DNA of 36,473 bases from positions 1 to 36,473 of the forward strand of contig JAFIFU010000036.1 in NCBI GenBank assembly GCA_020831885.1, given 5' to 3'. Each line of letters opens with the position of its first letter. The stretch's first letter is position 1. The DNA is from Ectothiorhodospiraceae bacterium. GTDB taxonomy: Bacteria > Pseudomonadota > Gammaproteobacteria > Nitrococcales > Aquisalimonadaceae. Below the pieces are notes generated by a model. That model ran no database searches. It was not told the DNA's origin and worked only from the letters and a program-made list of their open reading frames with translations. A program made the position numbers and the translations under genes. Of this stretch, positions 2,425-29,369 are shown one piece after another.

Positions 2425-3450
2425 TCAGGTGCCCGGTTCAAGCCGCTGGGAGATCTCGCCGCTGAGCGTGTAGTCGTAGGCATCCACCTTCAGCACGGGA
2501 GCGCCTTCGCTGAAGTCGATATTGTCGAAATCCACCCAGTAGAGGTTGGGGCTTCGGGTGGACTGGAAGTAATAGGTGAGATTGGTGGTATCGGCCAGGG
2601 TGAACCACAGCGTGGACCAGGTGTCCTCGGCACCACCGGCCGAGGAGTCCTGGGCGCCGAAGGGCACGGCCACGTTGCGTGCGATGCTGTAGGCACCGGC
2701 CACCGCCTCCCGCACGTTCTCCGGTTCCGGCAGCGTCTCCAGGTACGTGGACGCGCGGACAAAACGGCTCAGCGGGTCGATGTCGCCGGGTAGGGAAAGG
2801 TCGCCCCCGAACGGCTTGTAGTTCGCGAGATTGGCGATCTGTTCGCTATAGGTGGGCTCGTTGGTCATCACCCTGACGTCCTTGCCCTGATGGACCACCA
2901 TCTCGCCGTCGATGAACTCGATGACCGCGGAATCCCCGCCCGCGTCGGCGAGGGACAGGTGCAGCGGCCATGTCCGGCCGGCTACCTCGGTTGCCACCAC
3001 CTGGACGGAGCCCAGGGCATCCACCGCCTCGTCGACGGTGGCGAAATTGTCCAGGACGTACTGGGCAAGCATGACGTTGGACAGGCCCGGCAGGCTTTCG
3101 TCACGCTCTGCATATTCGCTGCCGGTCAGGTAGAGCAGATTGGCCGAAAGCCCGGCCTCGTTCAGGCCGTCGGTGGCGGCGATCCCGAAAGCCGTCACCG
3201 CGGAGCTGCCGTACCGCGAAGTCCAATTGGCCGGATTGTCGTCCCCGGTCCGCCCATCCCGTGCGATTCCCCGGGGGCTGATCACCAGGTCGGCCTCATC
3301 GGACATGTACAGGTCCATGGTCCGAGCCACCACATTGGCCTGGCCGTTGTCATTCCAGAAAACGCGGGAACAGGCCATGGCGGTTTCACCGATCAGGGAG
3401 AGGGTAAAGGTGAGCGTCAGGGCGGAAACGGCGAGCTGAGTTGGTGTCAT
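2425..3450 (-). CDS. Exported linear amide C-N hydrolase, choloylglycine hydrolase / penicillin V acylase family
   Basis: This is a 341-residue Ntn-hydrolase. An N-terminal hydrophobic segment (residues 5-20) ends in AMA before Cys27, so signal-peptidase cleavage would expose Cys27 as the N-terminal nucleophile needed for autocatalytic amide hydrolysis. Arg43 and Asp46 (ARTMD) follow at the spacing seen in bile salt hydrolases and penicillin acylases. Family members cleave bile salts, penicillin V or N-acyl-homoserine lactones; the substrate here cannot be decided. The ATG at 3450 has GAGG five bases upstream. It stands alone, convergent with the DUF1801 gene. In a free-living organism, acyl-homoserine lactone or lipopeptide hydrolysis in the periplasm is a reasonable inference. 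Confidence 0.88.
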   Translation of the reverse strand: MTPTQLAVSALTLTFTLSLIGETAMACSRVFWNDNGQANVVARTMDLYMSDEADLVISPRGIARDGRTGDDNPANWTSRYGSSAVTAFGIAATDGLNEAGLSANLLYLTGSEYAERDESLPGLSNVMLAQYVLDNFATVDEAVDALGSVQVVATEVAGRTWPLHLSLADAGGDSAVIEFIDGEMVVHQGKDVRVMTNEPTYSEQIANLANYKPFGGDLSLPGDIDPLSRFVRASTYLETLPEPENVREAVAGAYSIARNVAVPFGAQDSSAGGAEDTWSTLWFTLADTTNLTYYFQSTRSPNLYWVDFDNIDFSEGAPVLKVDAYDYTLSGEISQRLEPGT

Positions 3451-11422: not shown

Positions 11423-12562
11423 ATGATCTTCGATCTTACTGATGAGCAACGTGAAGCCGTAACCCAGTTCCGACGGTTTGCCGAGGATCGTGTCCGGCCT
11501 GTGACCGAGCCTTTGGCTGCGACCAGCATTGAGAAAGATGTCGCACTCTCCTTGATGAGAGAGGTTCTCCCATTCGGCATTGGTAGTGGCTGGATCCCTG
11601 AGGAGCATGGTGGCCTGGAAATGGGATACCTCACAAGCGGGTTGCTCTACGAGGAATTAAATCGTGTTTCTGCGGAGTTTGCGGGTATCGCCTTCATCAA
11701 CGAGGGCGCTGCATTGATGTTGTCCCGACTCGCGACCCCTGAGGTTCGGGATCGATACCTGCGACGCATGCTGGGTGGCGAGTTAATCGGTGCGACCGCG
11801 GTAACCGAGCCATCCGGAGGCTCCGACGTCAAGTCCATCCGCACCCGCGCGAAGCGCGTTGGGGATCATTACGTGCTGTCCGGTCGCAAGATCTGGATAT
11901 CCAACGGACATAACTGCGATTTCCTTGTTGTGCTTGCCCAGACCGAGTCGGGTCAGGGTCTTTTTGTTGTCGACCGTGACGAGCATGGCTTCGAGAGCCG
12001 GAAGCTTGACATGCTGGGTTTTCGAAGCTGGGGTCTGGCTGAAATCGTGCTGGACGAGGTCCAGGTTCCGGTCGCCAATCTGCTGGGATCAGAAGGACAC
12101 GGCCTGGTGGAAACCCTGAAGCTTTTCCAGCACGCCAGATCCTTTGTCGCAATCGGGGCGATCGGTATAGCCGCCGCCGCTTTGGATTGCGCCATATCCT
12201 ATGCGAAGACACGGACACAGTTCGGTAAGACCATTGCCGAGCACCAGTTGATTCAAGCGCACATCGCCGAGATGGCAACAGACCTTGATGCGGCGCGGTT
12301 GTTGGCCTATCGAAGCCTGGCCATGGCTGACCGCGGGGAGCGGTATGAGAAAGAGGGCGCGATGGCTAAATTTTTTGCAAGCGAAGCGGCTGTGCGCATT
12401 GCCTCGGCGGCGGTTCAGGTTCACGGAGGTTACGGCCTTTCGGCTGAGCTACCGGTCGAAAGGCATTTCCGGAACGCACGGATGATGACAATTCCGGAAG
12501 GGACGTCCGAGGTTCAGAAACTCATCATCGGCAGAAGTATCCTTGGCGTCAGCGCATTTTAG
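11423..12562 (+). CDS. Acyl-CoA dehydrogenase
   Basis: This 379-residue enzyme has all standard family marks: GATAVTEPSGGSDVKSIRTRA (FAD/substrate loop), WISNGHNCDFLVVLAQT, TRTQFGKTIAEHQLIQAHIAEMATD and the C-terminal IPEGTSEVQKLIIGR with catalytic Glu359. It should oxidise an acyl-CoA to the 2-enoyl-CoA, passing electrons to electron-transfer flavoprotein. Unlike the homologue at 5904-7097 it keeps the catalytic glutamate. TGGAG precedes the ATG. No partner genes follow, and its TAG stop is formed at the junction with the large repeat element A1. Chain-length preference cannot be read from sequence. Confidence 0.93.
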   Translation: MIFDLTDEQREAVTQFRRFAEDRVRPVTEPLAATSIEKDVALSLMREVLPFGIGSGWIPEEHGGLEMGYLTSGLLYEELNRVSAEFAGIAFINEGAALMLSRLATPEVRDRYLRRMLGGELIGATAVTEPSGGSDVKSIRTRAKRVGDHYVLSGRKIWISNGHNCDFLVVLAQTESGQGLFVVDRDEHGFESRKLDMLGFRSWGLAEIVLDEVQVPVANLLGSEGHGLVETLKLFQHARSFVAIGAIGIAAAALDCAISYAKTRTQFGKTIAEHQLIQAHIAEMATDLDAARLLAYRSLAMADRGERYEKEGAMAKFFASEAAVRIASAAVQVHGGYGLSAELPVERHFRNARMMTIPEGTSEVQKLIIGRSILGVSAF

Positions 12563-12886
12563 GGAAGCACTGAAGTATTCCCGCTGTCGCGCTCGTGTCC
12601 GGTTTTCGTTCGTGGCCAGGAGCAAGGTGCCGCAGGTAGTGGTTCTACCTGTGGTGGCTTGCGACACCGCCACGGGCGAAAACCGGCCGAGCCCCAAGGG
12701 GTTACGGTCAGCTATTTCGCGCTGGGTTGTTGCGGCTCTTGCCAAGGGCTCGCCATTGCCTGCGAGCCGCGCCTTGCCCCCGAACACGCTGCAAAGCCAG
12801 AGCACCATGGGAATAGATCAGCGCTTCCCTAGCACCGCGAAATAGCTGACCGTAACGCGACGGCGTGAACACTTCAGTGCTTCCCT
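12561..12886. repeat. Fold-back repeat, form A, with half of form B nested inside (A1)
   Basis: This 326-bp element has 31-bp terminal inverted repeats with three mismatches (AGGGAAGCACTGAAGTATTC at the left). Inside are two arms. One is bounded by CCGGTTTTCG and its complement. The other is bounded by TTACGGTCAGCTATTTCGCG (12702-12721) and its exact complement (12836-12855). The second arm's loop (about 12722-12830) contains the right half of element B, ending GGGAATAGATCAGCGCTTCC. The copy at 25060-25329 is the same element in the opposite orientation without that half. The left end supplies AG of the upstream TAG stop. No protein-coding content is evident. Confidence 0.85.
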
Positions 12887-13081: not shown

Positions 13082-15103
13082 ATGCGCCTTACCGGCAGTT
13101 TTCCGTACCGCGTTCGTGTGACGGAGCATCTCTGGATTCCTTTGCCGGATGGTACGCGCCTTGCGGCGCGCGCCTGGATCCCCGAGCAGGCCGCCCGCGA
13201 TCCCCTTCCCGCCATCGTTGAATACATTCCCTACCGCAAGCGGGATTTCACCCGTTTGCGGGATGACGTGATGCACGCCTGGTTTGCCGGGCATGGCTAT
13301 GTATGCCTGCGGGTTGACCTGCGCGGCAGTGGAGAATCGGAGGGGTTGTTGACCGACGAATACCTGCCCCGGGAACTGGAGGATGGCGAAGCAATGCTGA
13401 ACTGGGTTGCGGCGCAGCCCTGGTGCAACGGGCGTGTGGGCATGATCGGAATTTCCTGGGGCGGATTCAACGGGCTTCAGCTGGCGGCGAGGCAGCCGGC
13501 CCCGCTGAAAGCGATCATCACCGCATGCTCCACCGATGACCGCTATACCGATGACGTGCACTACATGGGCGGCTGTTTGCTGGCGGATAATCTGTCCTGG
13601 GCTTCCACCATGTACAGCCACACCGCGTTACCGCCTGATCCGGATCTGGTGAGGGACGGATGGCGTGAATCCTGGCATCGACGGATGGAAGGGAGCGGTT
13701 TCTGGCTGGAGCCCTGGCTCGAGCACCAGTTCCGAGACGCGTATTGGCGGCATGGTTCGGTGAACGAGCATTATGACCAGGTGTGGGTTCCGGTGATGGC
13801 GGTATCCGGTTGGGCCGATGGCTATTCGAACGCCGTGTTCCGACTGCTGGAGCACCTGCGGGTACCACGCATGGGGCTTATTGGTCCCTGGGGACACAAG
13901 TACCCCCATCAGGGGCAGCCCGGCCCGGCCATCGACTTTCTCTCCGAAGCGCTGCGCTGGTGGGACCGTTGGCTCAAGGGTGTGGAAAGCGGTGTGGAGG
14001 CGGAGCCCATGCTCCGCGTGTGGATGCAGGAGAGTGTGCCGCCCACGACGGACCTGAAGTCCCGGCCCGGTCGGTGGGTGGGGGAGATGTGTTGGCCGTC
14101 GCCGCAGATCGAGCGTACGGTTTACCCGTTCCGACTGGGACGGGTGGGCGTTCCGGGCAGCGTGGCGGGGAGGAGCAAGCTGCGGGTCCAGTCCCCGTTG
14201 TCCGTGGGGCTTTTCGCGGGCCGCTGGTGTTCGTTCACGGCCACCCCGGATCTGCCCCACGACCAGCGTGAGGAGGATGGCGGGGCGCTCACCTTCGACA
14301 GCGCATCCCTCAAGGAGCCCCTGGAAATCCTGGGCGCGCCGGTGGTCACCCTTCGCATCGCAAGTGATCGGCCCGTGGCGATGGTGGCGGTGCGGCTGTC
14401 CGATGTGGCGGAAAACGAGGAAGCCACGCGGGTCACCTATGGACTGCTGAACCTCACGCATCGGGACAGTCATGATCACCCGGAGCCGCTGGAGCCGGGC
14501 AGCTTCTATGAGGTGCGCGTGCAACTCAACGACGTGGCCCAGCGCTTTCCTGTCGGCCATCGCCTGCGGGTCTCCATCTCCACCTCGTACTGGCCTGTGG
14601 CCTGGCCGGCCCCGGAGTCGCCGCGGCTGACCGTGGATACCGCTGCCAGTACGTTGGAACTGCCGGTCCGGCGGGCCCGGGAGGCCGACGACCCCGTATG
14701 GGAATCGTCCCCCCCGCAGGGGGCGCCGGAATCGGAAACGACCCGGATCGACCCGCGCGATTACGGCTGGACGGTGACCCGCGATCTGGCAGCGGATCGA
14801 TCCGTGCTGGAAGTGAAGAAGGACGAGGGCGCCTTCCGCATCGATGGCATCGGCTTGACCATGCGCATCCGCACCACGGAGTGGTACAGCCATGTGGCCA
14901 ATGATTACGGCTCGGTCCGCGGTGAAACGGAAAGCCTGCGCGGTCTTTCACGGGGTGAGTGGTCCATCGTCGTCAGGACACGTACCGTGCTGACGTCCGA
15001 TGCCGGGTATTTCCACCTGCGGGCGGAAATGGACGGCTACGAAGGTGACCAGCGGGTGCATTCCCACAATATCGCGCGGTCGATTCCCCGGCATCTGATC
15101 TAG
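13082..15103 (+). CDS. CocE/NonD-family serine hydrolase (copy 1)
   Basis: This large hydrolase has 673 residues. The N-terminal alpha/beta-hydrolase domain has Ser125 in GISWGG, Asp246 in GWADGY and His272 in GPWGH, the triad layout of cocaine esterase and alpha-amino-acid ester hydrolases. The C-terminal half is the jelly-roll X-Pro dipeptidyl-peptidase-like domain (LEILGAPVVTLRIASD...). There is no signal peptide. GGGGAGAACGGG precedes the ATG. It is roughly half identical by eye to the protein at 16168-18201, with the triad at the same residue numbers. An ATP-grasp gene follows 28 bp downstream, very likely co-transcribed. Family substrates include acyl amides, esters and acyl-beta-lactams; this one is unknown. 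Confidence 0.92.
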   Translation: MRLTGSFPYRVRVTEHLWIPLPDGTRLAARAWIPEQAARDPLPAIVEYIPYRKRDFTRLRDDVMHAWFAGHGYVCLRVDLRGSGESEGLLTDEYLPRELEDGEAMLNWVAAQPWCNGRVGMIGISWGGFNGLQLAARQPAPLKAIITACSTDDRYTDDVHYMGGCLLADNLSWASTMYSHTALPPDPDLVRDGWRESWHRRMEGSGFWLEPWLEHQFRDAYWRHGSVNEHYDQVWVPVMAVSGWADGYSNAVFRLLEHLRVPRMGLIGPWGHKYPHQGQPGPAIDFLSEALRWWDRWLKGVESGVEAEPMLRVWMQESVPPTTDLKSRPGRWVGEMCWPSPQIERTVYPFRLGRVGVPGSVAGRSKLRVQSPLSVGLFAGRWCSFTATPDLPHDQREEDGGALTFDSASLKEPLEILGAPVVTLRIASDRPVAMVAVRLSDVAENEEATRVTYGLLNLTHRDSHDHPEPLEPGSFYEVRVQLNDVAQRFPVGHRLRVSISTSYWPVAWPAPESPRLTVDTAASTLELPVRRAREADDPVWESSPPQGAPESETTRIDPRDYGWTVTRDLAADRSVLEVKKDEGAFRIDGIGLTMRIRTTEWYSHVANDYGSVRGETESLRGLSRGEWSIVVRTRTVLTSDAGYFHLRAEMDGYEGDQRVHSHNIARSIPRHLI

Positions 15104-15131
15104 GTGTGGAGGGGAGGGGAGTTTTCTACCC

Positions 15132-16154
15132 ATGGGCAAGCAGACAAAGCTGCAGTTGGGCCTGCTGACCGGGGATCCCTCCCTGCCGTTCGAATATGGT
15201 CCAGCGGGTGTATCCGGTGAGACGGAGCGGAAGGCCTTGGAGCAGGCGCTGACGGCCGTGCGCAGCCTGGATCGCTATACAGTGACGCTTTTCAGTGATC
15301 ACGAGCAGTTGCTGGATGCGTTGCGGGCCCGGCCACCCGAGTTGATGCTGAACCTGTGTGATGCGGGCTATCGTAATCGGCTGGCGCTGGAACCCAACGT
15401 TCCGGCCTTGTTGGAGCTGCTGGGGATTCCGCATACCGGGGCCGGTCCCGTGTGTATGAGTCTCTGCAGCGACAAGGCCATGGTCAGGCTCCTGGCGGCC
15501 ACGCACGGAATCCCCGTCCCCAGTGAGACCTTCGTTGACCTCACTGCGGATCCCCTGGTGCTCCCGGCGCTGTACCCCGCGCTGATAAAGCCCAACGCCG
15601 GCTGTGGCAGCATCGGCGTGTCGGCGGGCTGTGTTGTTAACACCCCCGCGGAAGCCGATGTCTGGCTGCGCCATCTGGCGGACGTGCTGGAGCGGCCCCA
15701 GGCGCTGATCCAGGATTTTCTCACCGGGTCCGAGTACACCCTGGGCTTGGTGGGCAACCCCGATAGCGGCATGACCATACTGCCAGCGCTGGAAATCGAC
15801 TACAGCCGCCTGGATCCGGCGCTGCCGCCCATTCTGACCTACGAGTCGAAAGTGGATCCCGATTCCGCTTACTGGCAGGCGCTGCGTTTTCGCAAGGCGG
15901 AGCTGCACGTGGATACAGAGGCGCGGATGATCGAGCATGCGCTGTTTCTTTTCGAGCGGCTCGGTCTCCGTGACTATGCGCGGATCGACTTCCGCGCCGG
16001 CCCGGACGGCGTGCCCCGGTTGCTTGACGTGAACTTCAACCCCACATGGCATTGGGACGGGAAGCTTGCGGTCATGGCCGGTTGGGCCGGTCACACCTAT
16101 CCGGAGTTGATCGGCATGATCCTTGAGGCGGCCAGGCAACGGTATGCGATGTAA
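15132..16154 (+). CDS. ATP-grasp ligase related to D-alanine-D-alanine ligase
   Basis: This 340-residue ATP-grasp enzyme is predicted to form an amide or peptide bond through an acyl-phosphate. ATP-binding lysines are likely Lys115 (SDKAMVR) and Lys153 (LIKPNAGCGSIGV). IQDFLTGSEYTLG (193-205) matches the Ddl-type GxEYT segment, and metal ligands are likely Asp286, Asp299 and Asn301/Asn303 (RIDFRAG, LLDVNFNP). The usual Ddl ending ENTxPG is replaced by DVNFNPTWHWDGK, and the gene is far from cell-wall genes, so a housekeeping Ddl role is unlikely. It is joined to the CocE gene upstream and converges with a second CocE gene 13 bp away. Confidence 0.88.
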   Translation: MGKQTKLQLGLLTGDPSLPFEYGPAGVSGETERKALEQALTAVRSLDRYTVTLFSDHEQLLDALRARPPELMLNLCDAGYRNRLALEPNVPALLELLGIPHTGAGPVCMSLCSDKAMVRLLAATHGIPVPSETFVDLTADPLVLPALYPALIKPNAGCGSIGVSAGCVVNTPAEADVWLRHLADVLERPQALIQDFLTGSEYTLGLVGNPDSGMTILPALEIDYSRLDPALPPILTYESKVDPDSAYWQALRFRKAELHVDTEARMIEHALFLFERLGLRDYARIDFRAGPDGVPRLLDVNFNPTWHWDGKLAVMAGWAGHTYPELIGMILEAARQRYAM

Positions 16155-16167
16155 CCGGCACGCCCGG

Positions 16168-18201
16168 CTACAGCAGGTCACGTGCGATCACCTCGTCCCA
16201 TTCGCGTTCGTAAACCAGTGCACGTCCCTCGAAGGCCTGCAGGCTTGCCTGCAGGCGGAAGGTGTCCCGGCGGGATGACAGTGCGGTTCGACATTCGATG
16301 CGCACCGACCAGTTGTCCCGGCGGAGGATGGTCTTCTGTTCGATGTTTGCCCGCGCTGACAGCGGGTCGGTTTCGTTGATGCGGAATTCCTTCCGCATGG
16401 TGTAGCCCACCGTAAGCCCGATGTCCTCGATGCGCGCGAGCGCTGCGCCGCCGAAATCCCCGCCATCGCTGTACGTCGTGTATACCGTTTCCTCGGTGGT
16501 CAGGTCCAGCTCCACCATGCGCTGTGGTGTCACGATTTCCAGGGCTGTGTGCTCGGGCTCCGGGCCTTTTTCGGGAGCCTGGAAAGCCGGCAGGGTGTTG
16601 TCCTCGGGCCGGGATGGGCGCACGGGAAGTTCCAACGTGCTGGTGCCGGTATACAGGGTCAGTTCCACCGGTTCCGGGGCGGGCCAGATCATGGGCCAGT
16701 AGGCAGTGGAAACGGCGAGCCGCAGGGTGTGTCCGGCGGCAAAGCAGTAGGCGATGTCGTTCAACTGCAGGTGGACCCGGTAGTGCTGGCCCGGTATCAG
16801 CGGTTCCGGTCGTTCATGTCCGTTGCGATGCGTGAGATTCAGCGTGCCGTAGCTGACTCGGGCGGAGGAACCGTCTGGTGCAACGTCATTCAGGCGAACG
16901 GCGATGAGGGCTACCGGCTGGTCCACCGCCAGCTCCAGGGTGACGACCGGTGCACCGAGAATCTCCAGAGGTTCCGGTAGCGGGTCGGAGTCGAAGACCA
17001 GGGACTTGCCATCGTCCGCACGTTGATCCAGCGGGGAGTCGCCTTCTGTACCGAAACCGTAGAAGTCACCACCGCGCAGCCCGGTGGTCTGCGGCGAACG
17101 AACCCTGACCGCATCCTCGGGATCGGGCCGTTCGCCCAGCGACATCACGTTCAAGTACCGGCGTTGTGGCGTGTTTCGGGGTGGAGGCCATCGGTCCTCT
17201 GCGATCCAGCGGCCGGGGCGGAGGTCGAGATAGGGCGCCGGCGCGACCCAGGATTCCATCCAGACCCGGATACGGGGTTCTTCCATGATCCCCGTATCCT
17301 CCCCTTTGAGCCAGTGATCCCACCAGCGGACCGCCTCCTGAAAGAATCCGATCCGGGGTCCGGGCACAGCGGCATGGGGAAAGGCATGCGGCCAGGGGCC
17401 GATCAGGGCCTTTCCCGGTGCTTTCAGGCCCTGCATCAGCCGGGGAATGGCGTTCACATAGCCGTCCGCCCAACCGCCCACCGCGTAGACGGCACACTCG
17501 ATGGCACCGTAGTCCTCGCAGACGGATCCATGCTTCCAGTAACTGTCCCGGTGGGGGTGGCGCATCCACACGGCGGGAAACAGCCGGTTGCTCTGCAGGC
17601 GCTCCATCCATTGTTCCCGCCAGATGTCCCCGACGATTTCCGGGTCGGGGGGGCAGGCAGTCAGGGCGAAGAAGGCGGAACCCCAAACCAGGTTTTCATT
17701 CAGCAGGCAGCCGCCCTTGAAGTGGGCGTCGTCGGCGTAGCGGTCGTCGGTGGAACACATGGTGATGATGGCCTTCAGTGCAGGGGGGCGACGGGCGGCA
17801 ACCTGCAGCGCGTTGAACCCCCCCCAGGAGAGGCCGATCATCCCCAGCTTGCCGTTGCACCATGGCTGGCGGGTGATCCAGTCGATGGCGTCGATGGCAT
17901 CGTCCTGTTCCTGTTGCAGGTATTCGTCGCGCAGTATGCCTTCGGAATCACCGGTGCCGCGGACGTCCAGGCGGATGCCGGCATATCCGTGCCCGGCGAA
18001 GTAGTGGTGCAATGGCTCGTCCCGCAGACGGGTGAAATCGCGCTTCCGATAGGGCATGTACTCCAGGATCGCCGGTACCGGTGCCTCTTCGGCGTCTTCA
18101 GGCAGCCAGATTCTGGCGGCCAGACGAACGCCGTCACGCATGGGTATCCAGATGTTCTCGATGACCTCCACCCCGGCGGGAAAGCGGTTGATGACCTTCA
18201 T
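16168..18201 (-). CDS. CocE/NonD-family serine hydrolase (copy 2)
   Basis: The protein has 677 residues, with the same two-domain build as the gene at 13082: an alpha/beta-hydrolase core with Ser125 (GLSWGG), Asp246 (GWADGY) and His272 (GPWPH), then the C-terminal beta-sandwich. YMPYRKRDFTRLRDE and HGYAGIRLDVRGTGDSEG are shared nearly word for word with copy 1, so the two arose by duplication, although they now sit on opposite strands. The start overlaps the stop of the M20 peptidase gene in an ATGA, which indicates translational coupling. It probably cleaves a related but not identical ester or amide. Confidence 0.92.
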   Translation of the reverse strand: MKVINRFPAGVEVIENIWIPMRDGVRLAARIWLPEDAEEAPVPAILEYMPYRKRDFTRLRDEPLHHYFAGHGYAGIRLDVRGTGDSEGILRDEYLQQEQDDAIDAIDWITRQPWCNGKLGMIGLSWGGFNALQVAARRPPALKAIITMCSTDDRYADDAHFKGGCLLNENLVWGSAFFALTACPPDPEIVGDIWREQWMERLQSNRLFPAVWMRHPHRDSYWKHGSVCEDYGAIECAVYAVGGWADGYVNAIPRLMQGLKAPGKALIGPWPHAFPHAAVPGPRIGFFQEAVRWWDHWLKGEDTGIMEEPRIRVWMESWVAPAPYLDLRPGRWIAEDRWPPPRNTPQRRYLNVMSLGERPDPEDAVRVRSPQTTGLRGGDFYGFGTEGDSPLDQRADDGKSLVFDSDPLPEPLEILGAPVVTLELAVDQPVALIAVRLNDVAPDGSSARVSYGTLNLTHRNGHERPEPLIPGQHYRVHLQLNDIAYCFAAGHTLRLAVSTAYWPMIWPAPEPVELTLYTGTSTLELPVRPSRPEDNTLPAFQAPEKGPEPEHTALEIVTPQRMVELDLTTEETVYTTYSDGGDFGGAALARIEDIGLTVGYTMRKEFRINETDPLSARANIEQKTILRRDNWSVRIECRTALSSRRDTFRLQASLQAFEGRALVYEREWDEVIARDLL

Positions 18202-19538
18202 GGTCCGCCTCCGCTGTGATGTCCGGGATTAGAGCGATCGCCCCGATCGCTTGCCTCGGGGAGTTTCAGGGATTGCGGGTCGGCTTCCAGAAGACGTTCG
18301 GTGGCTCGAACCAGGGTGCGCGCCACCTTGTAGGTGGCCTCCAGCGATACCGATTCGTTGGGTCCGTGGGCCAGTTCGATCTCGCCGGGCCCATAGATCA
18401 CCGTGGGGATCCCGGCGAGCCGCACCCACCCGGACATGTCGCAGCCGTAGGGGGCGGCGGCAATGTTGGGTGCATGGCGGAACTCCTCCTCGGCGGATTC
18501 CGCCATAGCCTGGACCAGAGGGTGGTCCCGGGGAATGCCTGCGGAGCCGAACCCGGATGCCAGGCGGGTGATATGCGGCGGATTGCCCGAGAGCCAAGGA
18601 TCGTCGCGAATGTGTTCCATGATGGCGTTTCGGAAGCGTGCTTCCGCCTGCTCGATGGTTTCGTCCAGCGCCACGCCCACCCGGACCAGCGCTTCCAGGG
18701 AGTCCATGACGCTGGACGACCAGTTGCCCCCACGGAGGATGCCCACGTTGGTGGCATAGGGGAGGGGGTGCACCTTCATCAGCGGGTGGGTTTCCCGTTC
18801 GTTGATGGCGCGTTCATCCTTCCGCATGGCTTCGTAGATGGTCAGGAAGTGATCCAGGGCGCTTTCTCCCAGCGTGCGCCGACTGGCGTGGGCGGCCTTT
18901 CCGCGGACTTCCACGCGCAGCGACATGGCGCCGGCATGCGCGATCACCAGTTCCGGGTTTCCGCCGGCGGACAGGGTTGGCTCCGGAATGATGGCCGCAT
19001 CCGCCTGCCAGCCGCCACGAATCGCTGCCAGGGTGCCTAGTCCGCTGTCCTCCTCGGCGGGAACGGCGGCGAAGATGATGCGGCCGGGAAAGTTCCTCCC
19101 GCTCTCGGCAAAGGCCTCGAAGGCCGCCATGGCAGCCACCAGACCGCTCTTCATGTCGCTGGCCCCGCATCCATAGACGCGGTCCTGGCGTACCACGCCG
19201 GAAAACGGTTCCTCGGCCCACAGGGAATAATCGCCGGGTGGGACCGCGTCCACATGGCCGGTGAGCAGGACGGTCGCTCCGGGCTGTTCGCCCCGGAGTA
19301 CGCCGACGACCACCGGCGCCCACGCACGCTCGACCTCATGCCCGGGGTAACGCGGGTCCCGCTGGAGGGCGGCAATACCGTCGTTCCAGTAATCGATCTC
19401 CACATCCAGTCGCTGCAGCCAGTTGGCGATCTGGCTGATGGCCGCGTCTTCCTGCCCGGTTATCGAGGGGATCCGGATCAGGGACACCAGCCGTTCCTGG
19501 ATATGGTCGTAGTCGACGTGCGAGGTCCGTTTTGCCAT
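18198..19538 (-). CDS. M20-family metallo-amidohydrolase (ArgE/DapE type)
   Basis: This is a 446-residue zinc-dependent deacylase/peptidase. Metal and catalytic residues are visible: His95 and Asp97 (TGHVDAVPPGD), Asp128 (GCGASDMKSG), Glu162/Glu163 (VPAEED) and Glu186. The dimerisation insert is present. The ATG at 19538 has AGGGAGAG just upstream; the frame extends to 19922 but without ribosome sites or family similarity. It overlaps the CocE copy 2 start by four bases, so the pair is one operon. It likely removes an acyl or aminoacyl group from an amino-acid derivative. Arginine or lysine biosynthesis is unlikely given the neighbours. Confidence 0.92.
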   Translation of the reverse strand: MAKRTSHVDYDHIQERLVSLIRIPSITGQEDAAISQIANWLQRLDVEIDYWNDGIAALQRDPRYPGHEVERAWAPVVVGVLRGEQPGATVLLTGHVDAVPPGDYSLWAEEPFSGVVRQDRVYGCGASDMKSGLVAAMAAFEAFAESGRNFPGRIIFAAVPAEEDSGLGTLAAIRGGWQADAAIIPEPTLSAGGNPELVIAHAGAMSLRVEVRGKAAHASRRTLGESALDHFLTIYEAMRKDERAINERETHPLMKVHPLPYATNVGILRGGNWSSSVMDSLEALVRVGVALDETIEQAEARFRNAIMEHIRDDPWLSGNPPHITRLASGFGSAGIPRDHPLVQAMAESAEEEFRHAPNIAAAPYGCDMSGWVRLAGIPTVIYGPGEIELAHGPNESVSLEATYKVARTLVRATERLLEADPQSLKLPEASDRGDRSNPGHHSGGGP

Positions 19539-19710
19539 GGTGCTCTCCCTGGGTTCGGAGCGGTGGATCATTCCGTCCGCAGGAACGGAGTTCGCAGCTT
19601 GCGAACGGCGCCTCGAGATTGTTGAAGCCCCTTTTCCGTCACTGCCGGTGATGGCTGAAACTATAGAGCGTGCCGCGAGCATTGACAGAACCGGGTGATA
19701 TGCTGGCGGA

Positions 19711-20307
19711 ATGAACCGGACAACCGATTTGGCGCAGGGCCATCGGCCAGCGGACGTGGCGCCGGCCGGCGATTTTCCTCCGCAACCGCGGCTGGCACGG
19801 GGGTCAATCGCGTTGCGCCCCAGTACGCCCGATGATTGCGACTTCGTCCTTGGTGCGGAGAGACACCCGGACAACGTCCGCTTCGTGGAGCAGTGGACCC
19901 GGGGCCGGCATCTGCGCTGCATGGAGCGCGCGGATTGCCTGCACTGGATTGTCGAGCACGGAGGGCAACCGATAGGTTACGCGATCCTGCAGGATGCCGA
20001 TGATCCGGGGCGCAGTCTGTTGCTGCGGCGCATCGTGATCGCCAGCAAAGGGCGCGGTCACGGACGCGCCGCGCTGATTCTGCTTGCACGCTACTGCTTC
20101 GACGTGCTGCGTTTTCATCGGCTGTGGCTGTATGTAGCGGTGAATAACCGCCGGGCGCGGGCGCTGTACCGTAAGCTGGGTTTCGTGGAAGAGGGCATTG
20201 CCCGGGAATGCGCGAGAGAAGGCGATCGCTATGTCTCCATGGCCATGATGTCCATGCTGGAGGCGGAGTATCGCCTAAAGCCAGAGCACCATGGGAATCG
20301 ATCCTAG
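19711..20307 (+). CDS. GNAT-family N-acetyltransferase with repeat-derived C-terminus
   Basis: This protein has 198 residues with the GNAT fold of the RimJ/RimL type. IALRPSTPDDCDFVLGAERHPDNVRFVEQW starts the domain, ILLLRRIVIASKGRGHGRAALILLARYCFD-like residues form the acetyl-CoA loop, and VNNRRARALYRKLGFVEEG is the typical C-terminal part. About 30 poorly conserved residues precede the domain, so the start is uncertain. The last nine codons (KPEHHGNRS) are encoded by a terminus of repeat B. It is divergent from the M20-CocE operon and its stop overlaps that of the convergent ATP-grasp gene in CTAG. The acceptor is unknown. Confidence 0.87.
   Translation: MNRTTDLAQGHRPADVAPAGDFPPQPRLARGSIALRPSTPDDCDFVLGAERHPDNVRFVEQWTRGRHLRCMERADCLHWIVEHGGQPIGYAILQDADDPGRSLLLRRIVIASKGRGHGRAALILLARYCFDVLRFHRLWLYVAVNNRRARALYRKLGFVEEGIARECAREGDRYVSMAMMSMLEAEYRLKPEHHGNRS
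20277..20303. repeat. Fold-back repeat B end inside the GNAT reading frame
   Basis: AAAGCCAGAGCACCATGGGA followed by ATCGATC matches the right end of element B with one change over 27 bases. It is in frame with the GNAT gene and encodes its C-terminal tail. The element's outermost bases have been lost. Confidence 0.75.
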
Positions 20308-21602
20308 TGAAAGTTCGTCGGCACCACTTCGGCGAAACGGAAATCAAGTGCCGCCATCATCCTGTAGAACTTCTCGTGCAGCGCTTTCTCATCGTTGGCA
20401 CCCATAAACAGATCCGCGATCTCGAAACTGTAGCTGTCCTGGTTGCGCAACTCCGACAGGCGCATGCCTTCCGTGACATGCACGTGGACGGTCAGGTCCG
20501 GATGGAGCCGTTGCAACGCCTCGATCTGGTCCCGGGAAGGGACGCGGGTGACCACCGTGTCACTGAAGACCCGGGGCATGAATTTGCCGGCCATGGGGTA
20601 GTGTCCCTCCGGGCGCGGAAAATCCGGCCGCCGACCAAGGGCGATGTCGAGCGCCACCTCGTGGTGGGAGGCTCCGGTGGCGATCCGGAACAGCGGGCAG
20701 TGCGATTTGGAGATACGTGGATTGATTTCCAGTAGCCAGATCTTGTCGGTGGCCTCGTTCCAGAAAAACTCCATGTTGAAGGGGCTGTTGTCCAGTCCGA
20801 TATGAGCCAACAGCCGTTCTGCGTCGACAATCATGCGGTTCTGAACCCCGGCGGGCAGTTGCGAGGGGTACTGGTAACTGAAGAAACTGACCTGGTTGGC
20901 CGCCCGCAGCGAGTCGACCACGGCATACACAACGACCTCCTGGTCGTAGACGTAGCCTTCCAATGTGCAAAGCCGACCGCTGATCAAGCCCTCACCGATG
21001 CAGGTGGAGCCGCTTCCGTGATCCGGCAATGCGCTGCGGTTGTCGGAATACCCGAGGAGGTGATCGAAGGGGTGGGCGAAGACGTGAATATTGTCGTGCA
21101 TCGCAGCCATGGCCTGCAGGAACTGCTGTTCGTCGTCGATACGAAATCCCAGGTAGGATGAGAAGGCCACGCTGGGCTTGAGCCAGAAAGGGTACTCCAG
21201 TTCCAGATCCGCCACCGGATCGTCAGTATGCGCATTGAAGCCTTGAAAGGCAGGGGTGCACTCCGGCACCGCTTGTTGTCCCGCGAGACGGTTCCAGTAC
21301 TTGTGATCGCAGTACAGGACGCTCTCCAGGGAGGGCGCCGGCATTCCCCTTTCCCGTCGGAGGATGGGCAGCATGCAGGTGGTGGGAAAGTCCCAGTGGC
21401 CGATGATCGCATCCACTCTCGGAGCGGCGTCCAGCGTGGCGCGGGCCTGGGCCAGGATCTGCGGCATGTCATAGGAAGGCGGATTGACGATGGTGTCGTA
21501 GGGAACGAGGCCATGAAACTCATAGGCCGCGGCGTTGCGCACACTGCGCAGTTCCCGGAGATTGAGATCGTCCAGGCCGATCACGAAAACTTGGGTGGTC
21601 AT
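20304..21602 (-). CDS. ATP-grasp domain protein, ligase of unknown substrate
   Basis: This 432-residue protein belongs to the carbamoyl-phosphate-synthase-like ATP-grasp group. Likely ATP contacts are Lys101 (YCDHKYWN) and Lys142 (PFWLKPSVAFSS). Mg-binding residues are Glu278, Glu292 and Asn294 (NMEFFWNE and LLEINPRISKSH). A further C-terminal region of about 110 residues follows. GACAGGAG precedes the ATG at 21602. It is unlike the Ddl-type ATP-grasp protein at 15132, so the cluster holds two ligases of different type. Members of this group join a carboxylate to an amine or thiol; which ones cannot be told here. Confidence 0.87.
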   Translation of the reverse strand: MTTQVFVIGLDDLNLRELRSVRNAAAYEFHGLVPYDTIVNPPSYDMPQILAQARATLDAAPRVDAIIGHWDFPTTCMLPILRRERGMPAPSLESVLYCDHKYWNRLAGQQAVPECTPAFQGFNAHTDDPVADLELEYPFWLKPSVAFSSYLGFRIDDEQQFLQAMAAMHDNIHVFAHPFDHLLGYSDNRSALPDHGSGSTCIGEGLISGRLCTLEGYVYDQEVVVYAVVDSLRAANQVSFFSYQYPSQLPAGVQNRMIVDAERLLAHIGLDNSPFNMEFFWNEATDKIWLLEINPRISKSHCPLFRIATGASHHEVALDIALGRRPDFPRPEGHYPMAGKFMPRVFSDTVVTRVPSRDQIEALQRLHPDLTVHVHVTEGMRLSELRNQDSYSFEIADLFMGANDEKALHEKFYRMMAALDFRFAEVVPTNFH

Positions 21603-24815: not shown

Positions 24816-25059
24816 GAACCCCTTTAGGGTACTCATTCGGTCCATGCTTGGGCAAACCGCAATCTTCTGAAACCCGTTCTGGTGATACCGTCTCGAGTCT
24901 ATCTATGGGGCCCTGTGCCACTCCGTGAGCACCCCGGTGCGACCACTCGTCGCAAACAGCCACGGCGCGGTGTCTGGACGTCGCGTCATGGACAAAAACC
25001 TGAAAGGCTATAGTGGAAGTACTGTGCCGGCCCGGGCCTGGCGCGTAACAGGTGGTTAA

Positions 25060-25329
25060 AGGAAGCACTGAAGTATTCACGCCGTCGCGTTACGGTCAGC
25101 TATTTCGCGATGCTAGGCGTGATGCGCAGCGCCGTGGTCATTCCACGGCCAAGCGCCACAACAACGCAGCGCGAAATAGCTGACCGTAACCCCTTGGGGC
25201 TCAGCCGGTTTTCGCCCGTGGCGGTGTCGCAAGCCACCACAGGTAGAACCACTACCTGCGGCACCTTGCTCCTGGCCACGAACGAAAACCGGACACGAGC
25301 GCGACAGCGTGAATACTTCAGTGCTTCCT
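25060..25329. repeat. Fold-back repeat, form A, complete copy (A2)
   Basis: This 270-bp element has 30-bp terminal inverted repeats differing at one base (AGGAAGCACTGAAGTATTCA...). It contains two perfect or near-perfect internal arms. Arm 1 is TTACGGTCAGCTATTTCGCG (25090-25109) with its exact complement (25170-25189). Arm 2 is CCGGTTTTCGCCCGTGGC (25205-25222) with its partner (25275-25292), tipped by CAGGTAG/CTACCTG (25240-25258). The flanks show TAA on both sides, a possible 3-bp target duplication. It is the reverse-orientation sister of the element at 12561-12886. Drawn as one strand it would fold into a cross with two arms. Confidence 0.88.
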
Positions 25330-25340
25330 TAAAGGTTAGT

Positions 25341-28343: not shown

Positions 28344-28471
28344 TTGGGCCTGAGGCGGTTTTCGCCCGTGGCGTGTGGCAAGCCACCATGGCCGGAGCCA
28401 TGGCCTGCGGCGCCTTGCCCCCAAACAGGTGGAAAGCCGGCGCGCCATGGGAATGGATCAGCGCTTTCTTA
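28344..28471. repeat. Fold-back repeat, mixed half-element (C)
   Basis: This is about 130 bp between the convergent endonuclease V and methyltransferase genes. Its left part follows arm 2 of form A (CGGTTTTCGCCCGTGGC, then GCAAGCCACCA...CCTGCGGCGCCTTGC). Its right part ends like form B (CCATGGGAATGGATCAGCGC TTTCTT). The tip hairpin is ATGGC/GCCAT instead of CAGGTAG/CTACCTG in A2. The left terminus is missing. It shows that forms A and B exchange modules. Confidence 0.7.
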
Positions 28472-29287
28472 ACGATTCGCGGCGACAAAATGGGTTTCCA
28501 TTGGAAAGGTCACGCCATGGTCGTCCGTGAAGGCCGCCAATGCCGGTTCCAGATCGGCGATCAGTGCTTCCAGACTGTCCCCGTGGAGTTCAGCCAGCGG
28601 CTCCGCCAGAGGCGAGCTCGCTGCCTCCTGACGGAGGTACTCCGACGGGCTGGGGAACCGTACATCCAGGATGTCGTGCTGGACCGAAACCCCGGAGAAG
28701 CCCTGGGCTTTCAGTTCTTCCCGGAGTGTGTCGGCGTCCGGGCCACTGAAGGGCGAGCGCATCATGTCCCCGGCCGCTTTGCCGGCATGCCGTTCCAGCG
28801 TCGTTGCCAGTACTCCGTAGCTGGGGTTGAACGCAAGATCACGGAGCGATGCCAGCACCAGTCGACCCCCCGGTGCGAGCACACGGTGAAGCTCTGCGAG
28901 CGCCTTGGCCCGGTCAGCCACGAACTGCAGCACTTGCTGGCTGAGGGCGACATCGAAGGTGCGGTCCTCAAATGGCAGTTCCTCCAATGCTCCTTTTTCC
29001 CAGGCCACTGTCTGGTCTGCGTCCTGGCGGCGCGCCTCGGCGAGCATTCCGTCGTTGATATCGACGCCCACCACCTTGCTTGCCCGGCCCAGGCGCGAGG
29101 CTGCGGTCCGGGCGACAATGCCGGTACCACATCCGGCGTCCAGGATGCGGTCTCCCGGTGCGACGTCCGCGTGCGTCAGCAAGCGCTCGGCCCATCGCCG
29201 GAAGAAACGTCCCACAAGGTAGTCTTCGTAGGCGGTGGCGCTGTTCTGATCAAGTTGCCAGGCTGATCTGTCCTCTTCATTTTTCAT
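28469..29287 (-). CDS. Class I SAM-dependent methyltransferase
   Basis: This 272-residue methyltransferase has motif I ILDAGCGTGIVARTAA (about residues 49-64), the acidic VVGVDINDGMLAEARR, and the post-motif FDVALSQQVLQFVADRAKALAELHRVLAPGGRLVLAS, all as in UbiE/methyltransferase_11 proteins. AAGGAGG sits ideally before the ATG at 29287; the frame is open to 29353 but reads through an operator region. It is divergent from a TetR regulator, with repeated GTAGACCG sites between, so it is probably the repressed target. The substrate is unknown. The stop touches the end of a repeat element. Confidence 0.9.
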   Translation of the reverse strand: MKNEEDRSAWQLDQNSATAYEDYLVGRFFRRWAERLLTHADVAPGDRILDAGCGTGIVARTAASRLGRASKVVGVDINDGMLAEARRQDADQTVAWEKGALEELPFEDRTFDVALSQQVLQFVADRAKALAELHRVLAPGGRLVLASLRDLAFNPSYGVLATTLERHAGKAAGDMMRSPFSGPDADTLREELKAQGFSGVSVQHDILDVRFPSPSEYLRQEAASSPLAEPLAELHGDSLEALIADLEPALAAFTDDHGVTFPMETHFVAANR

Positions 29288-29306
29288 GACTGCCTCCTTG
29301 GAATAA

Positions 29307-29335
29307 GTAGACCGTCTGACATAGTATGTAGACCG
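29307..29335. promoter_or_regulatory. Repeated GTAGACCG operator, candidate TetR (LmrA/YxaF-type) site
   Basis: GTAGACCG occurs at 29307-29314 and again at 29328-29335, exactly 21 bp (two helical turns) apart. The first copy also forms the palindrome AGACCGTCT. As I recall, TAGACC is part of operators used by LmrA/YxaF regulators, and the adjacent TetR gene is of that type. Control of the divergent methyltransferase and autoregulation are inferred. Confidence 0.6.
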
Positions 29336-29369
29336 AACATCATATTTCGTCAACTACAACGGAACCCGG

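Follow-up and report, generated by a model that had tools for sequence, protein, structure and literature searches.

What common task could bring together two CocE-type serine hydrolases, two ATP-grasp ligases, an M20 metallo-amidohydrolase and a GNAT acetyltransferase, whose genes lie side by side at positions 13082 to 21602 of contig C74 of Ectothiorhodospiraceae bacterium? The contig of 36,473 bases was analysed as a whole (the window) and belongs to a genome of 4.13 Mb in 129 contigs. A first-pass annotation had listed the six genes as a possible pathway, and all of them are present where it placed them (Table 1). We propose that this block, with its Ddl-like ligase (DDL), its ATP-grasp_4 ligase (AG2), the hydrolases CocE1 and CocE2, M20 and GNAT, serves the synthesis and turnover of an amide-linked small molecule derived from amino acids, most likely a compatible solute of halophilic Proteobacteria; we hold this reading about equally likely to be right or wrong. 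We infer every reaction, the direction of flux, the identity of the product and its role from the genes, their neighbourhood, conserved residues, fusions and context. The finding is larger than first reported: the block is conserved in the host's order, and its AG2-CocE core occurs in the class and beyond.

Conservation of the block in the order of the host

Three genome samples were searched, comprising 54 genomes of the host's order, 369 of its class and 289 of its phylum. The class and phylum searches score few candidates per genome, so that counts from these two samples are lower bounds. Moreover, 109 neighbourhoods, some of them overlapping or cut by contig ends, were compared with the six proteins of the window.

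The series AG2/GNAT/M20/CocE2/DDL is kept in gene order and strands in eight of the 54 order genomes (G000, G001, G002, G003, G018, G021, G022 and G031, represented by the window and the loci L017, L018, L020, L047, L048, L058 and L059). In G031, M20 and AG2 are each split into two open reading frames (ORFs), with one TAG in AG2. Six more order genomes hold the block in partial or contig-split form: GNAT was not detected in the block of G025 nor CocE2 in that of G023, G037 has DDL elsewhere, G028 holds M20-CocE2-DDL, and the blocks of G013 and G029 are split over contigs; GNAT was not seen in G029. The block encloses a peptidase M1 gene in G002, G013 and G031. CocE1 stands codirectionally beside DDL in G000, G001, G004, G013 and G176, and G002 has a more distant CocE1-DDL pair in divergent orientation. 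DDL is present in 22 of the 54 order genomes (E ≤ 1e-30) and in 13 of the 369 genomes of the class sample (E ≤ 1e-40). Within the 109 loci, a CocE gene lies at most 1.5 kb from DDL in 25, from AG2 in 29 and from M20 in 16, and AG2 adjoins GNAT in ten. If the six families alone are counted, CocE and AG2 are consecutive in 27 loci, of which L063 and L214 are one place. There is also a second, recurrent block type in the order, whose DDL and AG2 are 39-44% identical and which includes CocE in part of the cases; it occurs with CocE in L023, L024 and L062 and without CocE in the stretch compared in L061, L064 and L025.

The surroundings of the block change from genus to genus. ORFs outside the block were compared for ten block loci from six genera (E ≤ 1e-15, >35% identity; flank lengths vary with the contig ends), and common flanking ORFs were found only within a genus, namely within g2 (L017, L018, L020) and within g9 (L058, L059, L060). 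The window, L047, L048 and L202 share no flanking ORF with the other block loci among the ten compared. Recurrence in other genera with different flanks places the neighbourhood beyond chance.

The genes do not have independent histories either. Distances correlate in all ten pairs of core genes (r = 0.67-0.91, permutation p ≤ 0.0015, 10-12 genomes); for CocE2 and DDL, G051 was set aside, as it carries paralogues of both (56% and 45%). Such a correlation also follows from common descent and therefore refutes independent histories only. The AG2 and M20 genes of G051 fall with genus g2 (local support 0.95 and 0.99), and the DDL and CocE genes next to them are paralogues; this pattern suggests a joint move of AG2 and M20. 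The first-pass annotation had recommended a search for the neighbourhood in other genomes and had regarded missing co-occurrence or separate phylogenetic histories as evidence against a pathway; on both counts the result favours its proposal.

A side observation concerns genus g2, where a circularly permuted ATP-grasp/Alpha-E protein and a transglutaminase-like protein are encoded beside DDL or CocE1 (L017:4370-7905, L018-L020).

An AG2-CocE pair as the widest-spread core

In its widest-spread form, the core of the block consists of AG2 and an adjoining CocE hydrolase. Of the 54 order genomes, 38 have AG2 (fragments included), versus 16 of the other 366 genomes of the class sample; in the whole class sample AG2 occurs in 18 of 369. 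Outside the order, CocE lies directly beside AG2 in 11 of the 16 AG2 genomes of the class sample (G105, G176, G198, G207, G223, G298, G317, G330, G373, G413 and G414), and AG2 has no adjoining CocE in G173, G208, G287, G318 and G363. Co-occurrence in the class sample amounts to 15 of 18 AG2 genomes with CocE versus 15 of 351 others. In the phylum sample, AG2 was found in seven of 289 genomes, which are the host, G053 (with the pair) and five others, two in the class and three outside; all five carry an AG2-CocE tandem. The host itself has a second AG2-CocE pair on contig C51, and a contig scan with DDL as query gave two loci only. The pair is without a specific function name in the libraries searched.

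On plasmids, the search with AG2 gave six records, all below 33% identity, and one neighbourhood of these has no CocE gene in its (incomplete) gene table. The search with DDL gave 473 records, all below 60% identity (24-30% among the matches listed), and neither of the two neighbourhoods compared resembles the block.

Arrangement of the six genes

DDL starts 28 bases past the stop of CocE1 on the same strand, the stop of M20 and the start of CocE2 overlap by ATGA (18198-18201), and the convergent genes GNAT and AG2 share a CTAG overlap of their stops (20304-20307). The first-pass annotation had described the joining of CocE1 to DDL and both overlaps, but had given no strands. The strands of the six genes in order are +, +, -, -, +, -. 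M20 and GNAT are transcribed away from each other across a gap of 172 bases, and CocE2/DDL as well as GNAT/AG2 are convergent. Since the strands alternate, at least four transcription units are needed, and the reading of the six genes as one operon is rejected. Two further corrections to the proposal are that CocE1 lies outside the conserved core and that the widest core is AG2-CocE. For M20, a frame of 574 amino acids is also open, but its start lies too far upstream: matches to the family models begin at about residue 11-18 of the 446-residue version.

Table 1. Genes and repeats of the window, and fused genes in other genomes (positions preceded by the locus)
Feature	Position	Strand	Remarks
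CocE1 (CocE/NonD serine hydrolase, 673 amino acids)	13082-15103	+	TIGR00976 227.6 bits, cut-off 66.3; optional member
DDL (Ddl-like ATP-grasp ligase, 340 amino acids)	15132-16154	+	PF07478; not a canonical D-Ala-D-Ala ligase
CocE2 (CocE/NonD serine hydrolase, 677 amino acids)	16168-18201	-	TIGR00976 272.7 bits, cut-off 66.3; core member
M20 metallo-amidohydrolase, ArgE/DapE type (446 amino acids)	18198-19538	-	TIGR01910 246.1 bits, cut-off 217.6
GNAT acetyltransferase (198 amino acids)	19711-20307	+	PF00583 53.4 bits, cut-off 20.7
AG2 (ATP-grasp_4 ligase, 432 amino acids)	20304-21602	-	PF13535 36.7 bits, cut-off 27
EctC-like-AG2 fusion	L149:12056-13807		iron-ligand His replaced
EctC-like-AG2 fusion	L192:3670-5364		iron-ligand His replaced
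EctC-like-AG2 fusion	L198:72-1751		iron-ligand His replaced
Repeat element with inverted ends, left border of block	12558-12886		not part of pathway
Near-identical copy of the repeat, opposite orientation	25056-25333	inverted	same repeat family

The repeat pair (184-nt arms, 97% complementary) flanks a 12-kb segment holding the whole block. On scoring 40 of 226 candidates, at least 61 matches to the element were counted in the host genome, most of them to a part of about 104 nt; the repeats look like a MITE-like family (miniature inverted-repeat transposable element). A fragment of the same repeat family (20277-20303) makes up the last codons of GNAT (tail KPEHHGNRS), so that the CTAG overlap in the window was shaped by the repeat. 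The same contig also carries a gene of the choloylglycine-hydrolase family at 2425-3450 (CBAH, 182 bits).

Protein families and predicted catalytic residues

The two hydrolases of the window are 48% identical to each other, and the best PDB match of CocE2 is cocaine esterase. With this enzyme and with alpha-amino acid ester hydrolase (CocE/NonD, S15) they have the catalytic and PepX_C domains in common, and the Ser-Asp-His triad can be aligned (S125, D246 and H272 in CocE2, positions by alignment). They differ in an extra C-terminal part after about residue 523, which in CocE1 extends for about 150 residues beyond the PepX_C match, and in their genetic linkage to ATP-grasp ligases.

The triad is conserved in at least 95% of the 66 aligned CocE homologues. 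At the same threshold, H95, D128, E162/E163, E186 and H391 are conserved among 17 aligned M20 proteins, K115, K153, E201, D286 and N301 among 42 aligned DDL proteins (window included), and K101, K142, E204, E278, E292, N294 and R296 among 75 aligned AG2 proteins. In these families, such residues have catalytic, metal-ligand and Mg/ATP roles. Since the expected catalytic residues are conserved, CocE, M20, DDL and AG2 are probably active enzymes.

Between the two ligases, BLASTP gives nothing but alignment pieces at chance level. AG2 resembles the L-amino acid ligases in its match to ATP-grasp_4 and in an NPR-type motif with conserved N294 and R296; the solved ligase 3vot, however, is matched very weakly (E = 0.29). 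A single-sequence structure model of AG2 (predicted local distance difference test, pLDDT, 33.9) was not used. DDL is distantly related to VanA and Ddl and can be aligned across the ATP-grasp domain with both VanA and DdlB, but it is 160 bits under the family cut-off of D-alanine--D-alanine ligase (82.8 versus 243 bits with one curated Ddl model, 63.5 versus 245.65 with another). A canonical Ddl role for DDL is ruled out by these scores.

Proposed function and comparison with NAGGN

Judging from their conserved ATP-grasp residues, AG2 and DDL would both spend ATP on linking a carboxylate with an amine. GNAT would acetylate an amino group. M20 may then remove the acyl group and the CocE hydrolase cleave the amide when the osmotic pressure falls, and nitrogen and carbon would be recovered by this hydrolysis. 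AG2 and CocE would form the minimal module for making and unmaking the compound, which DDL, GNAT and M20 may extend in the host's order.

The combination of ligase, hydrolase, acetyltransferase and deacylase suits a compound that accumulates and is later recovered, as excerpts of PMC8070244 describe for the osmolyte N-acetylglutaminylglutamine amide (NAGGN). The NAGGN operon asnO-ngg-peptidase (PA3459-PA3461) likewise combines a GNAT domain, ligase activity and a metallopeptidase, and has an osmolyte role. It differs in that the block has GNAT and ATP-grasp as separate genes of other families, two ligases, added CocE hydrolases and an M20-type (ArgE/DapE) peptidase. The peptidase partner of NAGGN synthesis is of the M42 type. 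No protein of the 54 order genomes passes the cut-off of 570.1 bits for the NAGGN amidotransferase (AsnO-type, TIGR03104); the best score in the order is 375.6 bits and that in the host genome 312, with more distant relatives in all 54. TIGR03103 (Ngg, the fused GNAT-ATP-grasp protein) is absent from the family matches of GNAT (nine families) and AG2 (one family) at E ≤ 0.01 and is not among the best 25 of 30 family matches of DDL. Membership of the block in the NAGGN system is ruled out by these results, and the first-pass annotation was right in seeing a ligase-plus-hydrolase logic of the NAGGN kind that lacks the amidotransferase.

Osmolyte context

In G330, G052 and G035, an EctC-like domain and a full AG2 form one open frame of 560-584 amino acids (Table 1). 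The fused EctC-like domains pass PF06339, and the one tested passes the ectoine-synthase model NF009806 as well (157.5 versus 128 bits). The orphan relatives of such EctC-type proteins have no clear function according to excerpts of PMC6344544. In a comparison with five stand-alone EctC sequences (from G000, G052, G330, G037 and G414), the Glu and the Tyr are retained in the fused domains, but the iron-ligand His is replaced (by V, V and I).

In G105, a run of genes on the + strand for the synthesis and uptake of betaine encodes GSMT (505 bits, cut-off 350), an SDMT-like protein (413 bits, under the cut-off of 550), ProV (376 bits, cut-off 326.6), a ChoW-like permease (359.7 bits, just under 363), a ChoX-like binding protein (141 bits, far under 379, with PF04069 over cut-off), AG2 and CocE. 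A BCCT transporter gene directly precedes CocE, with a LysR-type gene after it, in G323 and G416 (one family). Furthermore, EctC over cut-off is enriched in the class sample, in tests that ignore relatedness: 9 of 18 AG2 genomes versus 44 of 351 (p = 2e-4), and 17 of 30 CocE genomes versus 36 of 339 (p = 1e-8). Without the host's order, the figures are 7 of 16 AG2 genomes (p = 0.003) and 14 of 27 CocE genomes (p = 7e-7). Within the order EctC is present in 53 of 54 genomes, and thus the marker is uninformative there.

Several points weigh against the osmolyte reading and are collected here. As the His iron ligand is lost in all three fused domains, these may not make ectoine. The enrichment tests are confounded by halophile habitat, and for DDL outside the order there is no association with EctC (2 of 12 versus 48 of 354, p = 0.67). 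The BCCT loci are CocE without AG2, since G323 and G416 have no AG2 at E ≤ 1e-40. Besides the fusions and G105, no betaine or ectoine gene was found beside the AG2-CocE pair; ten further neighbours of the pair that were scanned are an amidase, an aldose epimerase, an amine oxidase and seven without family, with no recurrent family among them, and some may be false ORFs. MscS-type channels in a few loci (L032/L051, L053, L066/L078, L086 and L204, some of which are the same place) may be there by chance and were not used. The correlation of AG2 with CocE2 depends on G051, with r = 0.20 (p = 0.23) if this genome is kept and r = 0.85 if it is dropped for CocE and DDL. Finally, in the small-genome genus g15, AG2 stands mostly without the other five genes in the places compared, with G051 as the exception, and its neighbours are photolyase-like, MGMT, M42, NYN, PPK2 and Iso_dh genes (reading these neighbours as a TRAP transporter was wrong).

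In a more specific version of the proposal, AG2 and CocE would make and unmake compatible solutes of an undescribed amide-type family that is spread over halophilic Proteobacteria, and in three genomes the fused EctC-like cupin, with its altered metal site, may cyclise or bind the product. A group of EctC-type proteins outside of ectoine clusters would thereby gain a function. This version is tentative, and we consider it more doubtful than the general one. N-carbamoyl-glutamine amide and betaine conjugates were dropped as guesses at the product, no gene evidence singling one out.

Elsewhere in the window, the segment 28769-29209 on the minus strand is weakly similar (29% over 154 amino acids) to a sarcosine/dimethylglycine methyltransferase-like protein; it lies inside an ORF of 294 amino acids (28469-29353, minus strand).

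Alternative functions

The block might also be a catabolic or detoxifying cluster, with CocE and M20 degrading some ester or amide from outside, the products of which are then conjugated or activated by the ligases. CocE/NonD and M20 enzymes are typical hydrolases, an OppDF-type ABC gene precedes two CocE genes in G058, and an amidase gene lies beside CocE-AG2 in G223. For catabolism, however, two ATP-consuming ligases would be costly, no importer family recurred among the neighbours scanned, and 9 of 14 g15 genomes, which measure only 1.6-2.1 Mb, retain AG2. We regard this function as rather unlikely, though still as a live rival.

Another alternative, unlikely as well and in our estimate marginally less probable, is that the compound made and recycled by the block is not an osmolyte but a nitrogen reserve of the isopeptide or dipeptide type, related to cyanophycin. 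The types of ligase, peptidase and hydrolase would fit. Moreover, in G035 one minus-strand run (L199:1688-10127) encodes CphA (872 amino acids; TIGR02068 1115.6 bits, cut-off 850), an isoaspartyl dipeptidase (IadA, 389 amino acids; TIGR01975 394.4 bits, cut-off 331.25), AG2, CocE and M20. This likeness to the loci of cyanophycin synthetase and isoaspartyl dipeptidase is confined to L199: of 223 loci searched, with overlapping ones counted separately, no other has CphA and IadA matches, and tblastn gave no match in the window. A term search of the main text of PMC10206079 gave no occurrence of ATP-grasp, CocE or M20. The EctC-like fusions and the betaine locus point away from nitrogen storage. 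For the main proposal, the run in G035 is a further pointer to amide-bonded amino-acid chemistry. The suggestion of the first-pass annotation that ligases and acetyltransferase build an acylated amino-acid or dipeptide compound, which the hydrolases recycle, is partly supported: the osmolyte context (the fusions, G105 and the EctC enrichment) came to light independently, and the cyanophycin-linked locus keeps a role in storage or as a dipeptide live.

The distant relation of DDL to VanA and Ddl would also suit a peptide natural product or a ligation in the cell wall (the D-amino-acid ligase branch), with CocE and M20 for tailoring or self-protection. DDL homologues are fused to an N-terminal S-adenosylmethionine-dependent methyltransferase in six class genomes (L080, L082-L085 and L088; based on Pfam in three and on similarity in all six), and these genomes have no AG2 or CocE2 relative at the class-search thresholds. 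Yet the Ddl models are far under cut-off, no exporter or peptidoglycan gene recurred among the scanned neighbours, and the hydrolases that go with the ligase, within the class and outside it, suggest turnover, which makes this function improbable. Beside the methyltransferase-DDL gene of L085 we also observed a fusion of GNAT with a histone-deacetylase-like domain (L085:9211-10962), with a peptidase M32 gene on the other side.

That unrelated housekeeping genes became neighbours by chance is hardly credible. The alternating strands do mean that the six genes need not be co-transcribed, but recurrence with different flanks in six genera refutes this reading and both the correlated distances of all ten gene pairs (G051 paralogues set aside) and the AG2-CocE adjacency in the phylum sample speak against it.

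Significance of the AG2-CocE pair

As far as the open-licence literature searched is concerned, the block is undescribed. If its product is a compatible solute as proposed, a peptide-like osmolyte pathway would be added beside those of ectoine, betaine and NAGGN. The solutes of purple sulfur bacteria include sucrose, N-carbamoyl-glutamine amide and NAGGN, as given in excerpts of PMC7824335, and the pathway could help to explain minor solutes of these bacteria. It would also provide a testable role for the fused EctC-like proteins.

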